Origin: Rhizophagus irregularis | Taxonomy: Eukaryota > Glomeromycota > Glomeromycetes > Glomerales > Glomeraceae | Assembly (NCBI RefSeq): GCF_026210795.1 | Contig: NC_089436.1 | Span: 2,108,001 to 2,172,000, forward strand | Length of the DNA stretch: 64,000 nt | Direction: 5' to 3' | Part shown: positions 51,640 through 64,000 of the stretch, one piece after another | Layout of the letters: each line of letters begins with the position of its first letter | Position numbering within the stretch: position 1 is the first letter of the stretch | The notes under the pieces: generated by a model | Seen by the model: only the letters and a program-made list of their open reading frames with translations | Database searches by the model: none | Told to the model about the DNA's origin: nothing | Program-made: the position numbers and the translations under genes

Positions 51640-53690
51640 ATGTTAGTTAACGTTCGTTAATAAAAATATTAAAAAAAATAAAATTTTCGAAGGGTTTTAC
51701 CTTCGATATAGGAGTCTGGAACTCGGTTTCAGATTTCCTTGCCTAAAAAAAAAAGACGAAACGTTTGTTAACATTTTGCTAAATAAAAATATTAAAAAAA
51801 ATTAATTTTTTTGAAAAGTCTTACCTCCGATATGGGAGTCCGGAACTTGTTTCGGATTCCTTTGCCTAAAAAAAAGAGACAAAACATTAGAAACGTTTCG
51901 TTAATAAATTAATTAAAAAAAAAATTAATTTTCGAAGGTTTGTTTTACCTTTGATATGGAAGTCCGGAACTTGTTTCGGCTTCCTTTACCTGAAAAAAAA
52001 GAAACAAAACATTATAAACTGAACGTTTCGTTAATAAATTAATTAAAAGAAATAATTTGAAAGTTTTACCTTCAAACAGAACTTTCAAATGGGTCCGGAA
52101 CATACCTTTAGCATTCTGGACCTATAAAATACAAAAACGAACGTAACTAACGTTCGTTAAAGTTAAATTATAAAAAAAAAATATTTCAAAGATTTTTACC
52201 TTCAAAATAAACGTCCGGAGCCATTCTTTGGCGTCCAGGACTTATAAATATAAAAATGAACGTTAATTAATGTTCGTTAAATAAAAATATAAAAAAAAAT
52301 TCAAAGGTAAAACCTTTACCTTCGAAATAAGAGTCTGGAGCCGTTCTTCGGCGCCCAGGACCTAAAAACATGAAAAACGAACATTAATTAACGTTCGTTA
52401 AAATAAAATTAAAAGAAATATTTCGAAGGTAAACTTTACCTTCGAAATAAACGTCTGGAGCCATTCTTCGGCGCCCAACACCTAAAAACATGAAAAACAA
52501 ACGTTAATTAACATTCGTTAAAATAAAATTAAAAAAAATATTTTGAAGGTAAACTTTACTATCGAAATAAACGTCCGGAGCCATTCTTCAGCGCCCAGGA
52601 CCTATAAAACGTAAAAATGAACGTTAATTAACGTTCGTTAAAATAAAATTAAAAAAATATTTCGAAGGTAAACTTTACCTTCGAAATAAACGTCCGGAGC
52701 CGTTCTTTGGCGTCCAGGACCTATAAAACGTAAAAATGAACGTTAATTAATGTTCGTTAAAATAAAATTAAAAAAATATTTCAAAGGTAAACTTTACCTT
52801 CGAAATAAACGTCCGGAGCCGTTCTTTGGCGTCCAGGACCTATAAAACGTAAAAACGAACGTTAATTAATGTTCGTTAAAATAAAATTAAAAAAAATATT
52901 TCGAAGGTAAACTTTACCTTCGAAATAAATGTCCGGAGCCGTTCTTCGGCGCCCAGGACCTAAAAACATGAAAAACGAACGTTAATTAATGTTTGTTAAA
53001 ATAAAATTAAAAAAAATATTTCAAAGGTAAACTTTACCTTTGAAATAAACGTCCGGAGCTGTTCTTTAGCGTCTAGGACCTATAAAACGTAAAAATGAAC
53101 GTTAATTAATGTTTGTTAAAATAAAATTAAAAAAAATATTTCGAAGGTAAACTTTACCTTCGAAATAAACGTCCGGAGCCATTCTTTAGCGTCCAGGACC
53201 TATAAAACGTAAAAACAAATGTTAATTAATGTTCGTTAAAATAAAATTAAAAAAATATTTCGAAGGTAAACTTTACCTTTGAAATAAACGTCCGGAGCCG
53301 TTCTTTGGCGTCCAGGACCTATAAAACGTAAAAATGAACGTTAATTAATGTTCGTTAAAATAAAATTAAAAAAAATATTTCGAAGGTAAACTTTACCTTC
53401 AAAATAAACGTCCGGAGCCGTTTTTTGGCGTCCAGGACCTATAAAACGTAAAAACGAACGTTAATTATAGTTCGTTAAAATAAAATTAAAAAAAATATTT
53501 CGAAGGTAAACTTTACCTTTGAAATAAACGTCCGGAGCCGTTCTTTGGCGTCCAGGACCTATAAAACGTAAAAATGAACGTTAATTAATGTTCATTAAAA
53601 TAAAATTAAAAAAAATATTTTGAAGGTAAACTTTACCTTCGAAATAAACGTCCAGAGCCGTTCTTCGACGCCCAGGACCTAAAAACATGA
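51640..53690 (+). repeat. Array 2 of the 120-bp palindromic unit
   Basis: About 17 direct repeats; from 52261 the spacing is almost exactly 120 bp for twelve units. Each unit holds (i) CGAACGTTAATTAACGTTCG, a perfect palindrome; (ii) TTTCGAAGGTAAA then CTTTACCTTCGAAA, an inverted repeat; (iii) CGTCCGGAGCC...GGCGTCCAGGACC, a weaker GC-rich inverted repeat. Between units most changes are CG to TG or CG to CA. Homogeneity rises towards 53690. Confidence 0.93.
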
Positions 53691-54063
53691 CATATGGGCT
53701 GATCACTGACGCTCATTTCACTAAGTACATTTTGTGACATGATCCTGATCTGTACTACCAAAATGCGTGATAACTTGAATTTCGAGCCAATTGTCGTTCT
53801 GATTAACAAGAAAAAAAATTTTTTTACTATTGAAATCATTTGTTTCAAATGAGTTGTAAATGGGTTTGGAAGAGTTCATCGCGAAATTAAGAAAATATTA
53901 AAAGAAGGTATTTTTATTTTTAATATTCAAGTTTTAAAAGTTTTTTTAATTAAGAAACAAAATTTATATAAAACAACTCTTTATAACGCGTTATGGTAAG
54001 TAATTTTACTTTGTAAAATAATATATGTATTTATTAACTTAACTATTAATTATTTACAAGTAG

Positions 54064-56562
54064 ACTGCAAGAATTTTTTACCATAATTATCCTAATGATC
54101 CTTATATATATGCTCAATACACTTCTGGAGGAAAAAATTTTTGTTCAAAATATAAGATAATAACACTCGGACATTACCCACAGAATATTAAATATACACA
54201 AAAAAATAACCATAATGCTGTTCAATATCCGATACCAGATGGATATAATGTGAAAACGGAAATTGCAGATCAAATGCTATGTTGTGAAACAAAGTATACT
54301 TTGGCAAATAAGGTTTTATACACTATTACATGGAAAGAAAGACGAGCAGAATGGATGGTATCTAGTGAGCGATCTGCTAGTGGGGCTGTAAATGAGTTCC
54401 TAAAGGTATCTTAATTATTTTGCGCAACACGTTTTATGCATTTTTACTATTTTATTAATTATTTTATATCAATGTAGAAAACTAATCGTAAAAAATCTCA
54501 AATTTCTGGAGTACATGTCTTTGGATTTGATATTAAAATATTGCATCAATTACGAATTGAACAACCTAGAGAACTATCAACTGATAAAATTACTATTGAT
54601 AAAAGAAAAAGACCACTTAATGAAATACAATCATTGTCACAGCAAAACAAACGATATGCATCATTTGGAAGAGATGCTTACAAGAAAGTTAAAAACCTTA
54701 TCTTAAAACATCGAATGGTCTCAGAATCTGAGGAGCCAATTTGTATACGTAGTATGGAATTAGAAAATGGGAATAATATCATTAATATAAAATATAATTC
54801 ATTATTGGATCTTACAAGGTTAGATGCATATGTACGTGTATGTGATGAGACCTTATTAAGTCGTGATGGGTATCGAAGGCTTGCAACTATAGAAGCACGA
54901 TTGATACGGGAGTATCAAGTTGCACATAGGCGAATTGAGATCACTAAATTAATAAATAACCAAATAAACATTGGAACATTTAATCTTGATAAAGGACTTG
55001 ATCAGCAATCTATACTTGATGATAATGATGAACCTCAAGGTAATCCTGATGGAATTATAGTTGATGAACAAGAAGTTGGAAATGGTGTTTATCGATCAGT
55101 CCGAACCCTTCTTCAAACACTTATTCCTATTTGGAATAAATCAGTTCCACCAATTCTACAATCAGGAGATACAATAAATTTAAAACTCAGTGGTGATGGA
55201 AGAAATGTGGGTCATAAACAGAATCATGTGATGCTAACTTTCTGTCTGTTAAATGAAAAAGATGAAGTGTTAAAGCCAGACTATCAATATTGGTAAGATA
55301 GAGTTTATAGCATATGTTTTTTTGTTAAAATAACTAAATAAGAAATAGTATTTGTCTTTATGTGGGAAAAGAAAAATACGAAACATTGGCCAAAGTTGGC
55401 CATTTATTCAAGCTTCAGCTTTTGGACCTTAAAGAAAATGGAATTTATGTTAATGGCATACACTGGCCAATTGAGTTTTTTCTTTCTAGTGATTGGAAGT
55501 TTATGTATAACGTAATGGGATTAAATGCACCAAACTCAAAATATTTTTGTTTATATTGTGAATGTGAATCTAATATTCGCTGGGACATGAATTTAAAGTG
55601 GCCAATTAATAAAAATACGCAATGTAAGTTTAAAATATTTTTATTAAATAAAGCATTTATTTATTATATTAACTTTAACATTTAGTTTAAAATTTTTTTA
55701 ATTATAGCTAAGAAAAAACCCGAATTATTTCCTGTTATCAAACAGAAAAATTACATTCCTGACGAACTACATTTATTATTACGTATCTCAGATGTATTGA
55801 TGGAATGTTTTTTTAATAACTTATTTAAAAAAAAGGAATTTGAACGGGTAATTAAAAGTCAAATCGAACAAACTATGAAATCTATTCAAGTACATTTTGA
55901 ATTTTTTAAGTCACAGGGTGGAAAATGGGATTGGACTTCGTTGATGGGACCTAATAAGAAAAAAGTTCTACAACATTTTCCAGTCACTAATTTTATCTCA
56001 GGAAGACGTGGTGAAGATATTCAAAAACTTTGGCGTGATTTTTACGATCTATATATGTTTATAAGACGAACAGATCTTAAGAATTCCGAGATTGATGATT
56101 TTGAAATTAAAGTAAAAGAATGGATTTATTTGTTTTGTAGGCCAAATCAAGGTCAGATAAATTCATCATCACAAGTACCAGGTTTATACAGAAAGGAAGA
56201 TGTCACACCGTATATGCATATCTTTTCGCAGCACATTCCTGAATTTTTGCGAATCCTTAAAGAAAAGAATTTGTCATTGCAGTTTTTTTTTGCTTCAAGT
56301 ATTGAAAAAAAAAATCATAACCAGGTAAATATAAATTATTAAATTATTAATTATTAAACAAACTTTAATTACTTTTAAATTTTTCATTTAGGTTCGGTTA
56401 TTTTTTGGTGGCACTACTATGGGTGGCGGGATTAAAGGAAAATCTGTAGTACAAGATATAATGGAATTTGAAAATCGTCAGCTATTTTATTTGCTTAATA
56501 ATACTTCGCAAGAAATCCAGATACGAAATATTAATGCAGAAGATAAAGAAAACAACAATTAA
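54064..56562 (+). CDS. Putative DDE-type transposase, intact copy
   Basis: Five joined exons: about 54064-54405, 54478-55292, 55349-55623, 55708-56324 and 56392-56562, all with GT-AG introns and matching phases; about 735 residues. The first exon and ATG were not identified (a GTAAGT donor at 53996 suggests an upstream exon). Likely catalytic features: KLSGDGRNVGHKQNHVMLTF (first Asp), FFLSSDWKFMYNVMGLNAPN (second Asp candidate), a zinc-knuckle-like YFCLYCECES, PDELHLLLRISDVLMECFFN, YMHIFSQHIPEFL, and SIEKKNHNQVRLFFGGTT (Glu candidate). The order D...D...CxxC...LH...E resembles RNase H-fold transposases of large eukaryotic DNA transposons, but no named superfamily can be assigned with certainty. 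The N-terminal exon holds a domain with CCETKYTLANKVLYTITWKE. It probably moves this element and its relatives. All exons are open, unlike copy 2. Confidence 0.7.
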
Positions 56563-56612
56563 TAAGGTAAAATTTTAAACTTACTATATTGATTTATATT
56601 CTGAAGTGGTGG

Positions 56613-57319
56613 TCACGGTAAAATATAACAAAACTTTCCTTTAATAGATTCTTCAGGTGATTTTTGATTATTCAATGTTGCTATTTGTTTCTCATTACTA
56701 TATTAAAAAAAAAAAAAATATGCATTTTAAAAATAGGTTTGCGTTATAAAACATACTTTTCCTGAAATTCTCCAGAATCAGTAATGAAATTACAGGTCAT
56801 TCTTCCCAACGTGAACTCTCTGTTATTCTCTGATAATGTCGTTTGATTCCACATAAATTTGACTTGATACGTATTTTCATAATCCTCAAGTAAAACATAA
56901 CCCTTAGTATTAGTAAAGGGATTCTGTCGGAAATTCCAATGATCATAGTGAAATATTTCCTTAAGTTTAGCTGCTCCTGCGAATCCTTCAAAACAACATT
57001 GATATTTGTGTTTAGCAGGACTATATTTAAACTTTTCTTCATTTTTAAAAAGATATACAAACACATTTTCTGGGAAAGTTTCGATAGAAAAACGTTTTTT
57101 CCCAATAGCATGACGGGAAAATCCAAGTTTTTTTTTAATAAGAACAATAAAAGAGTTAATATAGTAAGACATTTGTTCCGAAGAGGGTTGGGGAAGCGAA
57201 CAAAAGTGGGGTATTGTTTTGTTATGTGAATGTTTATTTCTTTTGTGAATAAGCAATTTTTGATAAGTCATAAAAGCTCTAAAACAAAGCTTGCAACTGA
57301 TAGAAGACTGGCTCGCCAT
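56613..57319 (-). CDS. C2H2 zinc-finger partner protein of the transposon
   Basis: ATG at 57319; exons 56757-57319 and 56613-56697 join in phase (donor GTATGT, acceptor AATATAG), about 216 residues. Residues 9-30 form one C2H2 finger: CKLCFRAFMTYQKLLIHKRNKH. The rest includes FRQNPFTNTKGYVLLEDYEN, KFMWNQTTLSENNREF and TDSGEF, all conserved in copy 2, so selection has acted on this gene within the family. It ends 51 bp from the transposase stop, tail to tail. It probably binds the element's ends or regulates transposition. Its N-terminus lies about 120 bp from the right end. Confidence 0.72.
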
Positions 57320-57439
57320 AACTACGACACGACCTCTGAAAAAAAACTAACTAATATCTGATCAGCTAATCAGAGTTCGTGATTATCACATTGTTGATCA
57401 AGGTGAAAGAATTGAAGATGAGCGAAATTAGCCCATATG

Positions 57440-58640
57440 AAAAACGAACGTTAATTAACGTTCGTTAAAATAAAATTAAAAAAATATTTTGAAGGTAAAC
57501 TTTACCTTCGAAATAAATGTCCAGAGCCGTTCTTTGGCGTCCAGGACCTATAAAATGTAAAAACGAACATTAATTAATGTTCGTTAAAATAAAATTAAAA
57601 AAAATATTTCAAAGGTAAACTTTACCTTTGAAATAAACGTCCGGAGCCGTTCTTTGGCATCCAGGACCTATAAAACATAAAAACGAACGTTAATTAACGT
57701 TTGTTAAAATAAAATTAAAAAAAATATTTTGAAGGTAAACTTTACCTTCAAAATAAACGTCCGGAGCCGTTCTTTGGCGTCCAGGACCTATAAAACATGA
57801 AAAACGAACGTTAATTAACGTTTGTTAAAATAAAATTAAAAAAATATTTCGAAGGTAAACTTTACCTTTGAAATAAACATCCAGAGCCGTTCTTTGGCGT
57901 CCAGGACCTATAAAACGTAAAAATGAACGTTAATTAACGTTTGTTAAAATAAAATTAAAAAAAATATTTCGAAGGTAAACTTTACCTTCGAAATAAATGT
58001 CCGGAGCCGTTCTTTGGCGTTCAGGATCTATAAAACGTAAAAACGAACGTTAATTAACGTTCGTTAAAATAAAATTAAAAAAAATATTTCAAAGGTAAAC
58101 TTTACCTTTGAAATAAACGTCCGGAGCTGTTCTTCAGCGTCCAGGACCTAAAAACATGAAAAACGAACGTTAATTAACGTTCGTTGAAATAAAATTGAAA
58201 AAAATATTTCGAAGGTAAACTTTACCTTCAAAATAAACGTCCGGAGCCATTCTTTAGCGTCCAGGACCTATAAAATGTAAAAACGAACATTAGCGACGTT
58301 CGTTAAACAAAAATATAAAAAAAAATTTTGAAGGTAAAGGTTTTACCTTCGAAATAAGAGTCCGGAGCCATTCTTTGGCATTCAGGACAAGAAAATAATA
58401 AACCGAACGTTGGACAACGTCCGGTATATAAAAAATATTAGTTTCGAAGTTTTACCTTCAAAATAGAGTCTGGAACTGGTACTTTCAGCGCTCTGGACTT
58501 ACAAAAAAAAAAATAAAACGAACTTTAGCTAATGTTTCGTTAAATTTTTTTTTTTGAAATGGAGTCCAGGACGTACCTTTTGTGTTCTGGATTAATAAAA
58601 CAAACATTTTCTAACGTTCGTTAAATAATACTAATATCAA
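57440..58640 (+). repeat. Array 3 of the 120-bp palindromic unit
   Basis: About ten to eleven direct units at 120-bp spacing, the same orientation and structure as array 2. The first seven are nearly uniform; those after 58290 are progressively diverged (CGTTGGACAACGTCC, GTTAGCTAATGTTTCG). The mirror-image decay with distance from the cassette matches array 2. Confidence 0.92.
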
Positions 58641-59080
58641 AGTTTGAAATAGAGTACCTTCGGCGTTCTGTAAAATGTATTTTTTGAAGGAGATAAAGGA
58701 GTCCGACATCTTTTTAGTCCGAATCTCCTGCATGTTGCAGATTATATGCCGAATGTTGGACGAATTTGCCTTAAAGACTCCGAACCTTGCAAATAAATTT
58801 TTTTTTTAAAAAAAAATTTCTTTGATAAGTTTCAAAGCTTAAAAAACTATAATAGAAATATTTTTTCTTTGGAATCTTTAACAGATTATTTCCTAAAAGG
58901 TGTTGTAGAAAAAATTATTTCACTTCTTTAGTAATAAGTGTTGTAGAAAAATTTTTTTTTTAAAGTCTTGTAAAGTTTTTTTTTTAAAGAGTATTGTAAA
59001 AAAAATTAAATCAAGTTAGAGTTAATCAAAGTTTAAATATTAAATCAATGATGAAATTGCAGATCGAACTGATATTTTAA
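58641..59080. other. Right inner part of the 10.3-kb element
   Basis: A last GGAGTCCGACATC-like remnant, then A/T-rich DNA with repeats of TTGTAGAAAAA and AGTNTTGTAAA. No gene. Confidence 0.4.
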
Positions 59081-59340
59081 TGAAAAAAAAGCAAAAATCT
59101 GCAAAATTGCAGACTTCTGCATAAATTTCACATAAAAAAAAGCAGAAATCTGCAAAATCGCAGATTACTGCAGAAATTCATACATAAAAAATCAGAAACT
59201 TGCAAAATTGCAGATTATTGCATAACTTTGTAAAAAATAAAAAGCAGAAATCTGCAAAATCGCAGACTTCCGCATAAATTCACAAAAAAAATGCGGAGAT
59301 CTGCTAATTTTACAGATCTCTGCAGTTCTGCATCTTAAAA
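59080..59340 (+). repeat. Right subterminal tandem repeat
   Basis: Four units of about 60 bp, AAAGCAGAAATCTGCAAAAT then CGCAGATTACTGCATAAATT, each containing small CTGC/GCAG inverted repeats. Counterpart of the CTGCGCAGA motifs at the left end. Confidence 0.85.
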
Positions 59341-60652: not shown

Positions 60653-61100
60653 CATATGGGCTGATTTGAATCTGATCACATAGTAAATTTGGGTGATAAG
60701 ATCAGGTGTAACGTGATACTATTATGCATATAAGCTGCATATCATAGTAAAAATTTGTGACTTTATCATGAAGAACCAATCTTCGTTAAATCAAAACAAC
60801 TGTAATCGCGAGTTGCAAATTGGTTTCAGATTGGTTTTTGCTGCATCGCAAAGAGTTAGGGAAAAAACTTTTAAAAAGTTTTTCGCTATAAAGTTAGTTT
60901 TGCTTGTAATAATAAAATATTTTTACGCGTATTCTGTATTAAAATGGCGTATGTGTTAGGGTCAAGTCAAGAAAATAACTGAAGTAACCAAAGTGAAACG
61001 CTATTTTTTATAAACGGTACTTTTTTTCTTTAATTATAATTAAACTTGGGATTATATAGTTAATATATTACCAAATACTTTCTAATAAAATATTATTTAG

Positions 61101-63598
61101 ATGGCTATTTTACGAGAAATTTTTCTTATCAATATCCTGCAAGTTCTTTTATAACATCACAATACATATCAGGAAACCGACCCTTTTATTTTTGGTATAA
61201 AGTAGTGTCTTTAGGATATTATCCAACACCAGTTAAACTTACACAAAAAAATTCTAAAGATTGTATTCAATATCAAATACCTGATAACTATAGTGTTGAA
61301 ACTGAAGTTTCTAAAATGAAGATCCGTTGTGAAACAAAGTATCAACCAAATGGAAAAGTAAGGTTTACAATTGTGTGGAAAGAAAATAGATCAGAGTTGA
61401 GTATATACAGTGATCGCTCTGCAACTAGTGTTGTTAATGCGTTCTTAAAGGTATTATTATTATTTTTTTTTCAAAACTGAACTTTTAATAATTATTTTTA
61501 TTGATCTTATTAATTATACAGAAAAATAATCGCTCAAATTCTAATTTATCGGGAGTATACATTTTTGGGTTTGATATTGGACGATTGCATGAATGTCGCT
61601 TAGAAACAATGGGTGCTTCTATTACATTAGTTAACAAAAGAAAAAGGCCTCTAACAACGATTCAAACCATCTCAGGGCAAAATAAAAGATTTGCATCTTT
61701 AGGCAGAGAATCTGGAAAGGCAATTAGATCTTTGATTAAAAAACATCAATTGACTGATGAAACTAATCAACCAATTATTCATATTCATAAAATTGAATTG
61801 GATTTTAATGGCGAAAGTATTATTTTAACTTACAATCTACCTGATAATAAAAATGAACTTACAAAAATAGATGCTATTGTTAGAGCTTGTGATGAATCAT
61901 TGTTAGCACGTGATGGATATCGGCGGCTTGCTGCAGTTGAAGCATTTCTTATACGTGAATATTTGATAGCTAATCGTAGGGTTGAAATTACAAATCTTAT
62001 TAATAAAGATCTTAGAATTGGAACATTTAACATCAATAAAAGTGATAATGATCTGTTAATCATTTAGAATCTGATGATGGTATAATAGTTGATGAGGCAG
62101 AAATTGGAAATGGTGCATACAGGTCAATTTACACGATTTTACAAACTTTAATACCATTATGGAAAGAATCATCTCCTGCAATCATCAATTCTGGTGATAT
62201 ACTTAAACTTAAGCTTGGTGGAGATGGTCGCAATGTTGGTCGTAAGCAAAGCCATGTAATGATGACGATTTGTCTTTTAAATGAAGGAGAAGAAGTCTTA
62301 AAACCTGAACATCAATACTGGTAATAAATTTATTGTGATTTAATAACCAAAAATTAATTTAAATTATTAAATTTTTTTTTTTTAGCATTTGTCTTTATGT
62401 TGGACGAGAAAAATATGATGACCTTGCTAAGATAGGAAAATTATTTCAACATCAGCTTCTTGATCTCCAAAATAACGGAATATATGATAAAGATGGGAAT
62501 CATTGGCCAGTGGAATTGTTTTTTTCTGGTGACTGGAAGTTTATGTATATAATAATGGGATTGAACGCCCCAAATTCGAAGTATTTTTGTTTATATTGTA
62601 ACTGTCAATCTGAGTTACGCTGGGATATGGAACAAAATTTTGAAAATTCAGGAAATCATGCCTGTAATGTTAAAGGTTTTTTTTTCATGATTATTTTATT
62701 ACCAATTAATTAAAACTATGAATATTTACTAATAATTAGGTGAAAATAGAAAACCAGCATTATTTCCTGCAATAAATCAAGAAAATTATATTCCTGACGA
62801 ATTACATCTACTTTTGCGCATTGTTGATGTTTTGATGGAATGCTTTTTTAATGATGTAATTAAAAAAAAAGAGTTTGAAAAAAAATTAAATTAGAGATTG
62901 AACAAGCAATGCAAAACATTAAAGTTCATTTTGAGTTTTTCAAGTCAAGATCTACTAGTGGAAAGTGGGATTGGACTTCTTTAATGGGTCCTGATAAAAA
63001 GAAAGTATTGGAACATTTTCCAATTTCTCAATTTATTTCTGGCACTCGTGGACAAGAAATTGAAAAACTATGGAAGGAATTTCTCCGGCTTTATAAAGTT
63101 TTAAGAAAACCTTTTCTTTCAAACCAAGAAATTGATGCGTTTGAAATTGATGCCAAACAATGGATCCGTACCTTTTATTGTGCAACTGAAGGACATCCCA
63201 ATTCAATATCACATAAACCTGGATTATATCGCAAACAAGATGTAACCCCTTATATGCATGTTTTCGCACAACACATGCATCAATTTATGCGCTAATTAAA
63301 GATGAAAAACTTATCATTACGATATTTTTCTACTTCTAGTATTGAAAGAAAAAATCACGATCAGGTAATTTGTAAATTTATTTAAAAAGGATATTTTATT
63401 ACATATATTAATATTAATAGACCTTTTAATTAGGTTCAGTTATTTTTTGGTGGTACCACTATGGGTGGTGGAACTGAAAAAAAATTGGTAGTATATAATA
63501 TTATGTCTTTTGAAAATCGTCAACTTTATTACTTAGTTAACAAAACTCCCAAAGAAATTAATACTAGGAATATTGATTCTAACAAAAAAGTAAATTAA
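61101..63598 (+). pseudogene. Putative DDE-type transposase, broken copy
   Basis: Exons 61101-61450, 61522-62322, about 62386-62672, about 62741-63364 and 63435-63598 match copy 1 in order and motif: KLGGDGRNVGRKQSHVMMTI, FFSGDWKFMYIIMGLNAPNS, CLYCNCQSELRWDM, PDELHLLLRIVDVLMECFFN, SSIERKNHDQ, FFGGTTMGGG. Three lesions: a one-base frameshift near 62055, another in an A run near 62885, and a TAA at 63293 replacing a residue of the conserved stretch before the Glu motif. An upstream exon ending at about 61012 (GTACTT donor) joins in phase. Protein identity with copy 1 is roughly 50-60% by eye, so the two are old relatives, not recent duplicates. Confidence 0.72.
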
Positions 63599-63602
63599 AA
63601 TA

Positions 63603-64000
63603 TCATACATAGTGCTTTTGATCTAAGAATAATTGTTGAAGAGGAGAGCGTGGTAAAATAATTCTATATTGTGATTGATTATTTTTGGTAGTAGGCGTTG
63701 TAATATGACTTTCGGATTCTTGTAATTTTTTTTCGTCATTTCTAATAAAAAGTAATAAATACTTTAATTCATATAAATTTTGCACATAAAATTTAAAAAC
63801 TTACTCGTTTACAAATTCTCCCGAATCTGTTGTAAAAGTGCAAGTGACAACACCACATTGAAATGTCCGGTTGTTTTCAACTAATTTGGTCTGTGTCCAA
63901 CTAAAAGTAACCTCATGACTTTCCTCATAATTCACAAATAGTACATATCCAGTTGTTTTTGTTATCAGATCCTGTCGACAACTCCAATGTTCATAATTCA
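63603..64000 (-). CDS. Zinc-finger partner protein, copy 2 (partial)
   Basis: Exon 63805-64000 (continuing beyond the window) and last exon 63603-63741 join in phase. It shares TTGYVLFVNYEESHEVTFSW, NNRTF and TDSGEF with the copy 1 partner, then has a different Ser/Thr/Gln-rich tail. The stop is only 4 bp from the transposase stop. The zinc-finger N-terminus would lie outside the window. It appears open where visible. Confidence 0.62.

Follow-up and report, generated by a model that had tools for sequence, protein, structure and literature searches.

A convergent two-gene DNA transposon of Rhizophagus irregularis with one-base-pair target site duplications and a transposase predicted to have a RAG1/Transib-like core

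RESULTS

The element and its two copies

We analysed a 64,000-nucleotide stretch of the Rhizophagus irregularis genome (assembly GCF_026210795.1, contig NC_089436.1, positions 2,108,001–2,172,000 of the forward strand; hereafter the window, part of the contig labelled C8), which holds two copies of a DNA transposon carrying a transposase gene and a convergent partner gene. The original prediction, made from the letters of the window, had described a 3.75-kb unit with inverted ends, containing a gene of about six exons with a set of named motifs and a convergent gene for a C2H2 protein, and each of these points was borne out. Copy 1 measures 3,749 bp, is bounded by the inverted repeats CATATGGGCTGAT and CATATGGGCTAAT and has CATATG ends. 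Its transposase gene has six exons, joined across GT..AG introns of 56–84 nt into a frame of 740 amino acids with no internal stop, in which every named motif is present; the partner gene, on the minus strand and convergent to it, has two exons encoding 215 amino acids (Table 1). Throughout the genome searched (146.7 Mb in 32 contigs), the left-end sequence occurred at 305 exact sites (147 + 158), against one (1 + 0) for the reversed pattern used as a control.

The second copy, said to keep the left end, the gene order and both protein families, does keep all three. It is decayed, with frameshifts and stops breaking its genes, and shares 46–69% amino acid identity with copy 1 per tblastn segment. 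Its right end lies 510 bp outside the window, at the window-equivalent position 64510, giving a total length of 3,858 bp.

Table 1 Features of the transposon copies in the window
Feature	Position	Strand	Evidence or remark
Complete transposon, copy 1	53691..57439	+	Inverted ends, flanks; genomic relatives; 3,749 bp
Left terminal inverted repeat, CATATGGGCTGAT	53691..53703	+	305 exact sites in genome
Right terminal inverted repeat, inward reading CATATGGGCTAAT	57427..57439	-	End comparison
1-bp target site duplication (A), left	53690..53690	.	Flank comparison; related empty sites in surrounding 120-bp array
1-bp target site duplication (A), right	57440..57440	.	Flank comparison; related empty sites in surrounding 120-bp array
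Transposase exon 1 (ATG alone; predicted, least certain)	53993..53995	+	Splice signals GTAAGT...TAG
Transposase exon 2	54064..54405	+	Frame and splicing; similar segment in relatives
Transposase exon 3	54478..55292	+	Putative first catalytic D at 55195-55197, in SGDGR; corresponds to RAG1 D600 by motif and order
Transposase exon 4	55349..55623	+	Putative second catalytic D at 55491-55493 (RAG1 D708); zinc CxxC at 55548-55550 and 55557-55559 (C727, C730)
Transposase exon 5	55708..56324	+	DELH histidine at 55770-55772 (RAG1 H795)
Zinc HxxxxH in exon 5	56217-56219, 56232-56234	+	RAG1 H937, H942
Putative third catalytic E in exon 5	56304-56306	+	RAG1 E962
Transposase exon 6, including stop	56392..56562	+	Frame and splicing
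Partner gene exon 1, C2H2 finger and conserved domain	56757..57319	-	Translation, relatives
Partner gene exon 2, including stop (predicted)	56613..56697	-	Splice signals and frame
Copy 2, decayed, gene order as in copy 1 (window part)	60653..64000	+	Flanks C/C

Copy 1 splits a 120-bp tandem array (approximately 13 + 8 copies, 90% matches; 52118–53686 and 57440–58388), certain units of which represent related empty sites for it. A further short array at 59054–59304 consists of ~50-bp units based on GCAGAAATCTGCAAAATCGCAGA.

Termini and target site duplication

Collecting genomic copies, as the original prediction had proposed, defined both the right end and the target site duplication (TSD). 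We sampled 40 distinct insertions, made up of the two window copies, five elements of a deep clade and 33 loci whose ends match CATATGGGC/GCCCATATG exactly. The five were those of nine fetched deep-clade elements whose ends could be located and, unlike the 33 loci, were not selected by CATATGGGC; all ten of their ends read CATATNNGC. The base preceding the element was identical with the base following it in 34 of the 40 insertions, including all five deep-clade elements, against a mean of 14.7 and a maximum of 27 among shuffles, none of which reached 34 in 20,000. Longer repeats at the flanks were few (2 bp and 3 bp in three insertions each, 4 bp in one and 5 bp in none). An earlier count had given the 1-bp match in 28 of 34; 27 fetched loci without the exact end pair were dropped.

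Related empty sites were compared with the joined flanks of the insertions. The flanks of L009 aligned with L043 gap-free at the junction with one repeated base kept, at 97.5% over 200 columns, and the same gap-free junction with a single base kept was obtained for L063 against its own flank repeat, for L035 against L064 and for copy 1 against the array units sharing its junction. The junction of L022 was also gap-free against the transposase genes of four relatives (L062, L076, L080 and L081), with only 11 bases on the right side. TSDs of 2–8 bp and CATATG as the duplicated target were both rejected because the related empty sites lack CATATG and a single base is repeated.

Some observations weigh against a uniform 1-bp duplication. 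The match is absent from six of the 40 insertions (L003, L008, L012, L013, L017 and L029), the comparison of L020 with L066 has one surplus T within a T run and is ambiguous, and, among 15 other base pairings checked, the left base equals the third right base in 22 of 40, above the shuffled mean of 14.7, the remaining 14 pairings matching in 8–18 of 40. The last agreement may reflect a target preference. A literature search under several spellings of '1-bp TSD' found no paper, and the papers listed first by a broader search did not mention such a duplication. For the unrelated PHIS group, no TSD or TSDs of 1–4 bp are described (PMC10045372).

The transposase and its predicted fold

To compare the transposases we used an alignment, A1, of 27 rows made up of 24 relatives and three window exons (L064, L084, L086, L088 and L089 were left out). 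Asp219, Asp300, Cys319, Cys322, His510, His515 and Glu537 (numbering of the relative L066) are invariant in every row with a letter at the position, so that the rows carry the Asp-Asp-Glu (DDE) residues with C(2)C and H(3–4)H ahead of the last glutamate. Searched as single sequences, these proteins gave little. The spliced window transposase had a best Pfam E-value of 0.39, no match in NCBIfam and a best PDB E-value of 0.078 (a heat-shock protein), and the 27 A1 rows taken singly reached a best Pfam E-value of 0.0062 (DUF5975, three rows). The expectation that the motif set would not clearly match a named superfamily thus held for single-sequence searches; it did not hold for the kind of transposase, which is recognisable by its predicted fold and by its catalytic and zinc positions as that of RAG1/Transib and of CACTA-Mirage-Chapaev (CMC).

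Searched against PDB sequences, the A1 profile had nine matches up to E 10, five of which were RAG1 or RAG1-like (RAG1L) proteins, collinear and with a best E-value of 0.015; the alignment with RAG1 lands on the second catalytic aspartate with the CxxC motif and on HxxxxH. The catalytic and zinc positions of mouse RAG1, whose sequence was checked against the PDB, are D600, D708, C727, C730, H795, H937, H942 and E962, numbers that are self-consistent. With hhalign, D708, C727, C730, H795 (the DELH histidine), H937, H942 and E962 (the glutamate of EKKN) pair with family residues. This alignment stops short of D600, to which the SGDG aspartate corresponds by motif and order alone. The spacing equals that of RAG1 from the second aspartate to the CxxC (19) and between the two histidines (5), and is 22 in the family against 20 in RAG1 from histidine to glutamate.

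We then considered a structure model of the L066 core (595 residues; predicted local distance difference test, pLDDT, 79.9; predicted template modelling score 0.74). Foldseek placed RAG1 at ranks 1–31 (best E-value 4.6e-14), HzTransib at ranks 32–34 (3e-9) and Hermes at rank 35. VIA-align matched residues 91–589 of the model to RAG1 with Z 24.5 and a root-mean-square deviation of 4.0 over 449 residues, followed by amphioxus RAG1L (Z 22.1), HzTransib (21.9), the P element (13.0), ISCth4 (10.2) and Hermes (8.9). The model therefore has the RAG1-type core fold that marks RAG-like (RAGL) and Transib transposases, and the comparison with RNase H-fold transposases, suggested as a check on a possibly undescribed enzyme, put RAG1 first and so spoke against an unknown kind. 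The transposase is predicted to have a RAG1/Transib core, consisting of an RNase H fold, a zinc domain before the last catalytic glutamate and a C-terminal domain.

Against this assignment stand the distances between the first and second aspartates (81; 108 in RAG1) and from aspartate to glutamate (237; 254 in RAG1), and a sequence similarity to RAG1 that is weak (an hhalign probability of 26; a PDB profile match at E 0.015, with 0.16 for its best domain). The fold was, moreover, predicted for a relative 33–43% identical with the window exons, from 27 alignment rows. The RAG1 Pfam family PF12940 had no match in the genome, and its control was equally silent, so that this result carries no weight.

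Relation to CACTA, Plavaka and the wider clan

The CACTA-Mirage-Chapaev-Transib/RAG1 (CMCT) clan is described as having C(2)C and H(3–4)H motifs, mostly CA..TG ends and TSDs of 2–5 bp (PMC12730594). The family has the motifs and, with CATAT..ATATG, the termini; its TSD, 1 bp in 34 of 40 insertions, falls outside the range. Membership of this clan is the safe statement. We asked whether the family, which may already sit in Repbase or in a curated R. irregularis library, could be a diverged member, changed in its ends and TSD, of one of the named lineages (CACTA/EnSpm, Mirage, Chapaev, ESTA, Lanisha or Plavaka). In favour of this, hhalign of A1 against five CACTA open reading frames (ORFs) of the same genome gave E 1.3e-6 at a probability of 90.6, the CA..TG termini and zinc motifs are clan marks, and a Transib superfamily, which may be the same elements, has been reported in R. 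irregularis from HMM (hidden Markov model) profiles (PMC11075540). CACTA shares with the family the D-x-M/L-H motif and the C(2)C and H..H ahead of the last glutamate. Single CACTA sequences gave E 0.016 and 9.4e-4, which is not better than the 7.1e-4 of a single RAG1 sequence; three Plavaka ORFs (two of them near identical) gave E 0.041 at a probability of 1.3, and the five-ORF CACTA set against RAG1 gave E 0.46. By eye, the CACTA ORFs of this genome have HxxxH, not HxxxxH. As no CACTA structure was among the fold matches listed, the fold cannot decide between RAG1/Transib and CMC.

Pfam and the termini argue against a named lineage. Neither PF02992 (Transposase_21, CACTA/EnSpm) nor PF18759 (Plavaka) matched the 27 A1 rows or the spliced protein at E up to 10, although the Plavaka and Transposase_21 models match this genome 123 and 160 times (genome-wide lists, not matched locus by locus with the family); CACTA and Plavaka membership by Pfam was ruled out on this ground. 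The 1-bp TSD and CATAT ends are also unlike those of every lineage with values at hand. Fungal EnSpm elements have CAC..GTG ends and a 3-bp TSD, Plavaka has TGT or CATCA ends and a TSD of 2–3 bp, and ESTA, which like Plavaka is fungal with CMCT motifs and is likewise linked to RAG1 by HHpred, has a TA TSD, by which it differs from our family (PMC12730594). Transib, which resembles the family in predicted fold, CA..TG ends and zinc motifs, differs in having one gene, a 5-bp TSD and CAC ends (PMC7204232). We consider a diverged member of a named lineage fairly unlikely. The original interpretation is partly supported; among the lineages compared by TSD, termini and Pfam families, no named superfamily proved to fit.

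The convergent partner gene

The partner lies downstream of and antisense to the transposase gene in 14 of the 15 window-clade loci that contain the transposase exon followed by 1.1 kb or more of sequence, the miss being L045. (The window-clade set numbered 23; four of the others offered less room and showed no partner, L041 carried just the partner, and neither query matched L042, L046 or L059.) A convergent partner was found in seven of nine one-exon-core loci fetched with flanks (absent from L067 and L069), and an antisense downstream partner in 14 of 18 further loci (absent from L092, L094, L102 and L103), L107 among these 14 being nearer to the window clade. As had been claimed, ends and gene pair travel together; the word 'obligate', used for the partner at the outset, is too strong, and 'usual' is closer to these counts. 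The deep-clade loci with no detectable partner (those missed in the last two sets) may represent one-gene sublineages or deletions.

Distances between transposases correlate with those between partners (Mantel r 0.96, p 1e-4) in 12 loci chosen for both genes reading well. Both genes are under purifying selection. The ratio of non-synonymous to synonymous substitution rates is 0.09–0.25 in 11 deep transposase pairs and 0.08 when window exon 5 is compared with L018 and L019; for the partner it is 0.10–0.21 in three close pairs and 0.34–0.38 in two far ones. The absence of the partner at 1/15, 2/9 and 4/18 loci weighs against a functional pair, and would suit a passenger or fortuitous neighbour beside a transposase that suffices for transposition by itself. 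We think this unlikely, as the partner has kept its place and orientation over deep divergence, under purifying selection and in co-divergence with the transposase; such evidence speaks for common travel and constraint, not for need.

Partners of the family measure approximately 190–250 amino acids. The zf-C2H2 family of Pfam matched 12 of 16 partner rows (best E 1.3e-5; certain rows are without the N-terminus), whereas the window partner alone gave a weak zf-C2H2_4 match under the cut-off (E 0.012). DUF7953 matched weakly (window partner E 0.0025, under the cut-off; five of 16 rows, best 0.0011), and no Kelch or PHD family was among the Pfam matches listed (25 of 33 families). A fold search with the partner model (pLDDT 69.8) found no confident match (best E 0.13, Z 3.8), which is not proof of a new fold. 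With a C2H2 finger and no confident fold match, nothing links the partner to RAG2, and a RAG2-like Kelch protein found no support. We suggest that the partner may help to recognise the ends or to stabilise the complex.

It is quite improbable that the family is a true RAG-like (RAGL/TransibSU) transposon with RAG2 swapped or lost. In favour of that reading, RAG1 ranks above Transib in both the Foldseek and the VIA comparison, and the family resembles RAG1 and RAGL/ProtoRAG in the predicted fold over ~450 residues, the DDE and C2/H2 zinc residues, the D-to-CxxC and HxxxxH spacing and the convergent two-gene layout (PMC7204232, PMC9435367). Against it, those transposons have 5-bp TSDs (0/40 here), CAC ends (CAT at the window ends and at all ten deep-clade ends) and a Kelch RAG2-like partner in place of the C2H2 protein, and the present family is fungal, with sequence similarity to RAG1 near noise and PF12940 as silent as its control.

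Distribution in the genome

A DNA search with the element yielded 62 candidates, of which 40 were scored, and 59 pieces matched. Contig C29 holds a 96–97% copy of copy 1 in pieces, and relatives of 75–76% lie on C5, C17 and C31. The C29 pieces (433445–449143) are separated by ~11.5 kb containing a Transposase_21 match. The transposase core had 143 matching places at E ≤1 (117 of 270 candidates scored), many of which contain the complete core within a single exon, at 33–43% identity and in open frames of up to 812 residues. A 933-bp copy consisting of ends only (L001:101–1033), a miniature inverted-repeat transposable element (MITE), had 322 first-look candidates (40 scored), and four others were 99–100% identical to the query, which suggests recent movement. 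The MITE at L022 lies inside an apparent transposase gene of a relative, matching the four relatives named above until 11 bases beyond the junction. Another MITE, L014:1573–3936, is interrupted by ~3.6 kb with minus-strand ORFs of 495 and 270 amino acids that by eye resemble MULE-type transposases.

A viral or bacterial source was not supported. Pattern scans of viral and genome contigs with one protein, which are weak and cover no eukaryotes, found no relative (14 stretches matched a pattern in the genome-contig scan, none confirmed), and neither did an equally restricted, weak scan of plasmids. The best PHROGs E-value was 0.0025 (two of 27 A1 rows), and no viral fold matched at E ≤0.001, the best being a pandoravirus hAT-type protein (1.6e-3).

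DISCUSSION

Taken together, our results make it very probable that the element is an autonomous cut-and-paste DNA transposon of a separate CMCT lineage, with a transposase of predicted RAG1/Transib-like fold and a C2H2 partner; a separate lineage is the best reading of the motifs, termini and profile similarity. We infer DDE cut-and-paste transposition from the conserved residues, the predicted fold, the ends and the TSD. Gene 1 would encode the DDE transposase with its predicted RAG1/Transib core, and gene 2 the small convergent C2H2 protein, which would serve as an accessory subunit that binds either DNA or the transposase. The two proteins may together recognise the CATATNNGC inverted ends, excise the element and integrate it through two strand transfers offset by 1 bp, which would leave the 1-bp TSD; the ends-only 0.93-kb copies would be mobilised in trans.

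A bolder proposal, which we advance tentatively as a real possibility short of a preferred view, is that the family is a new RAG1-fold lineage of superfamily rank that uses a one-base-pair stagger and depends functionally on a second subunit of its own. It would then be an independent counterpart of RAG1–RAG2, with abundant copies and recent activity in an arbuscular mycorrhizal fungus. Published descriptions give RAG1-type transposases 5-bp duplications and, for RAGL, a Kelch partner. Should a relative that duplicates 1 bp and has a different convergent partner be confirmed, target stagger and subunit make-up in the clan would be more flexible than described, and the family would offer an outgroup for studying how a transposase comes to have a second subunit dedicated to it. 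Some of the repeats so far listed as unclassified in this important plant symbiont would also receive a name, and the family offers many young copies for testing.

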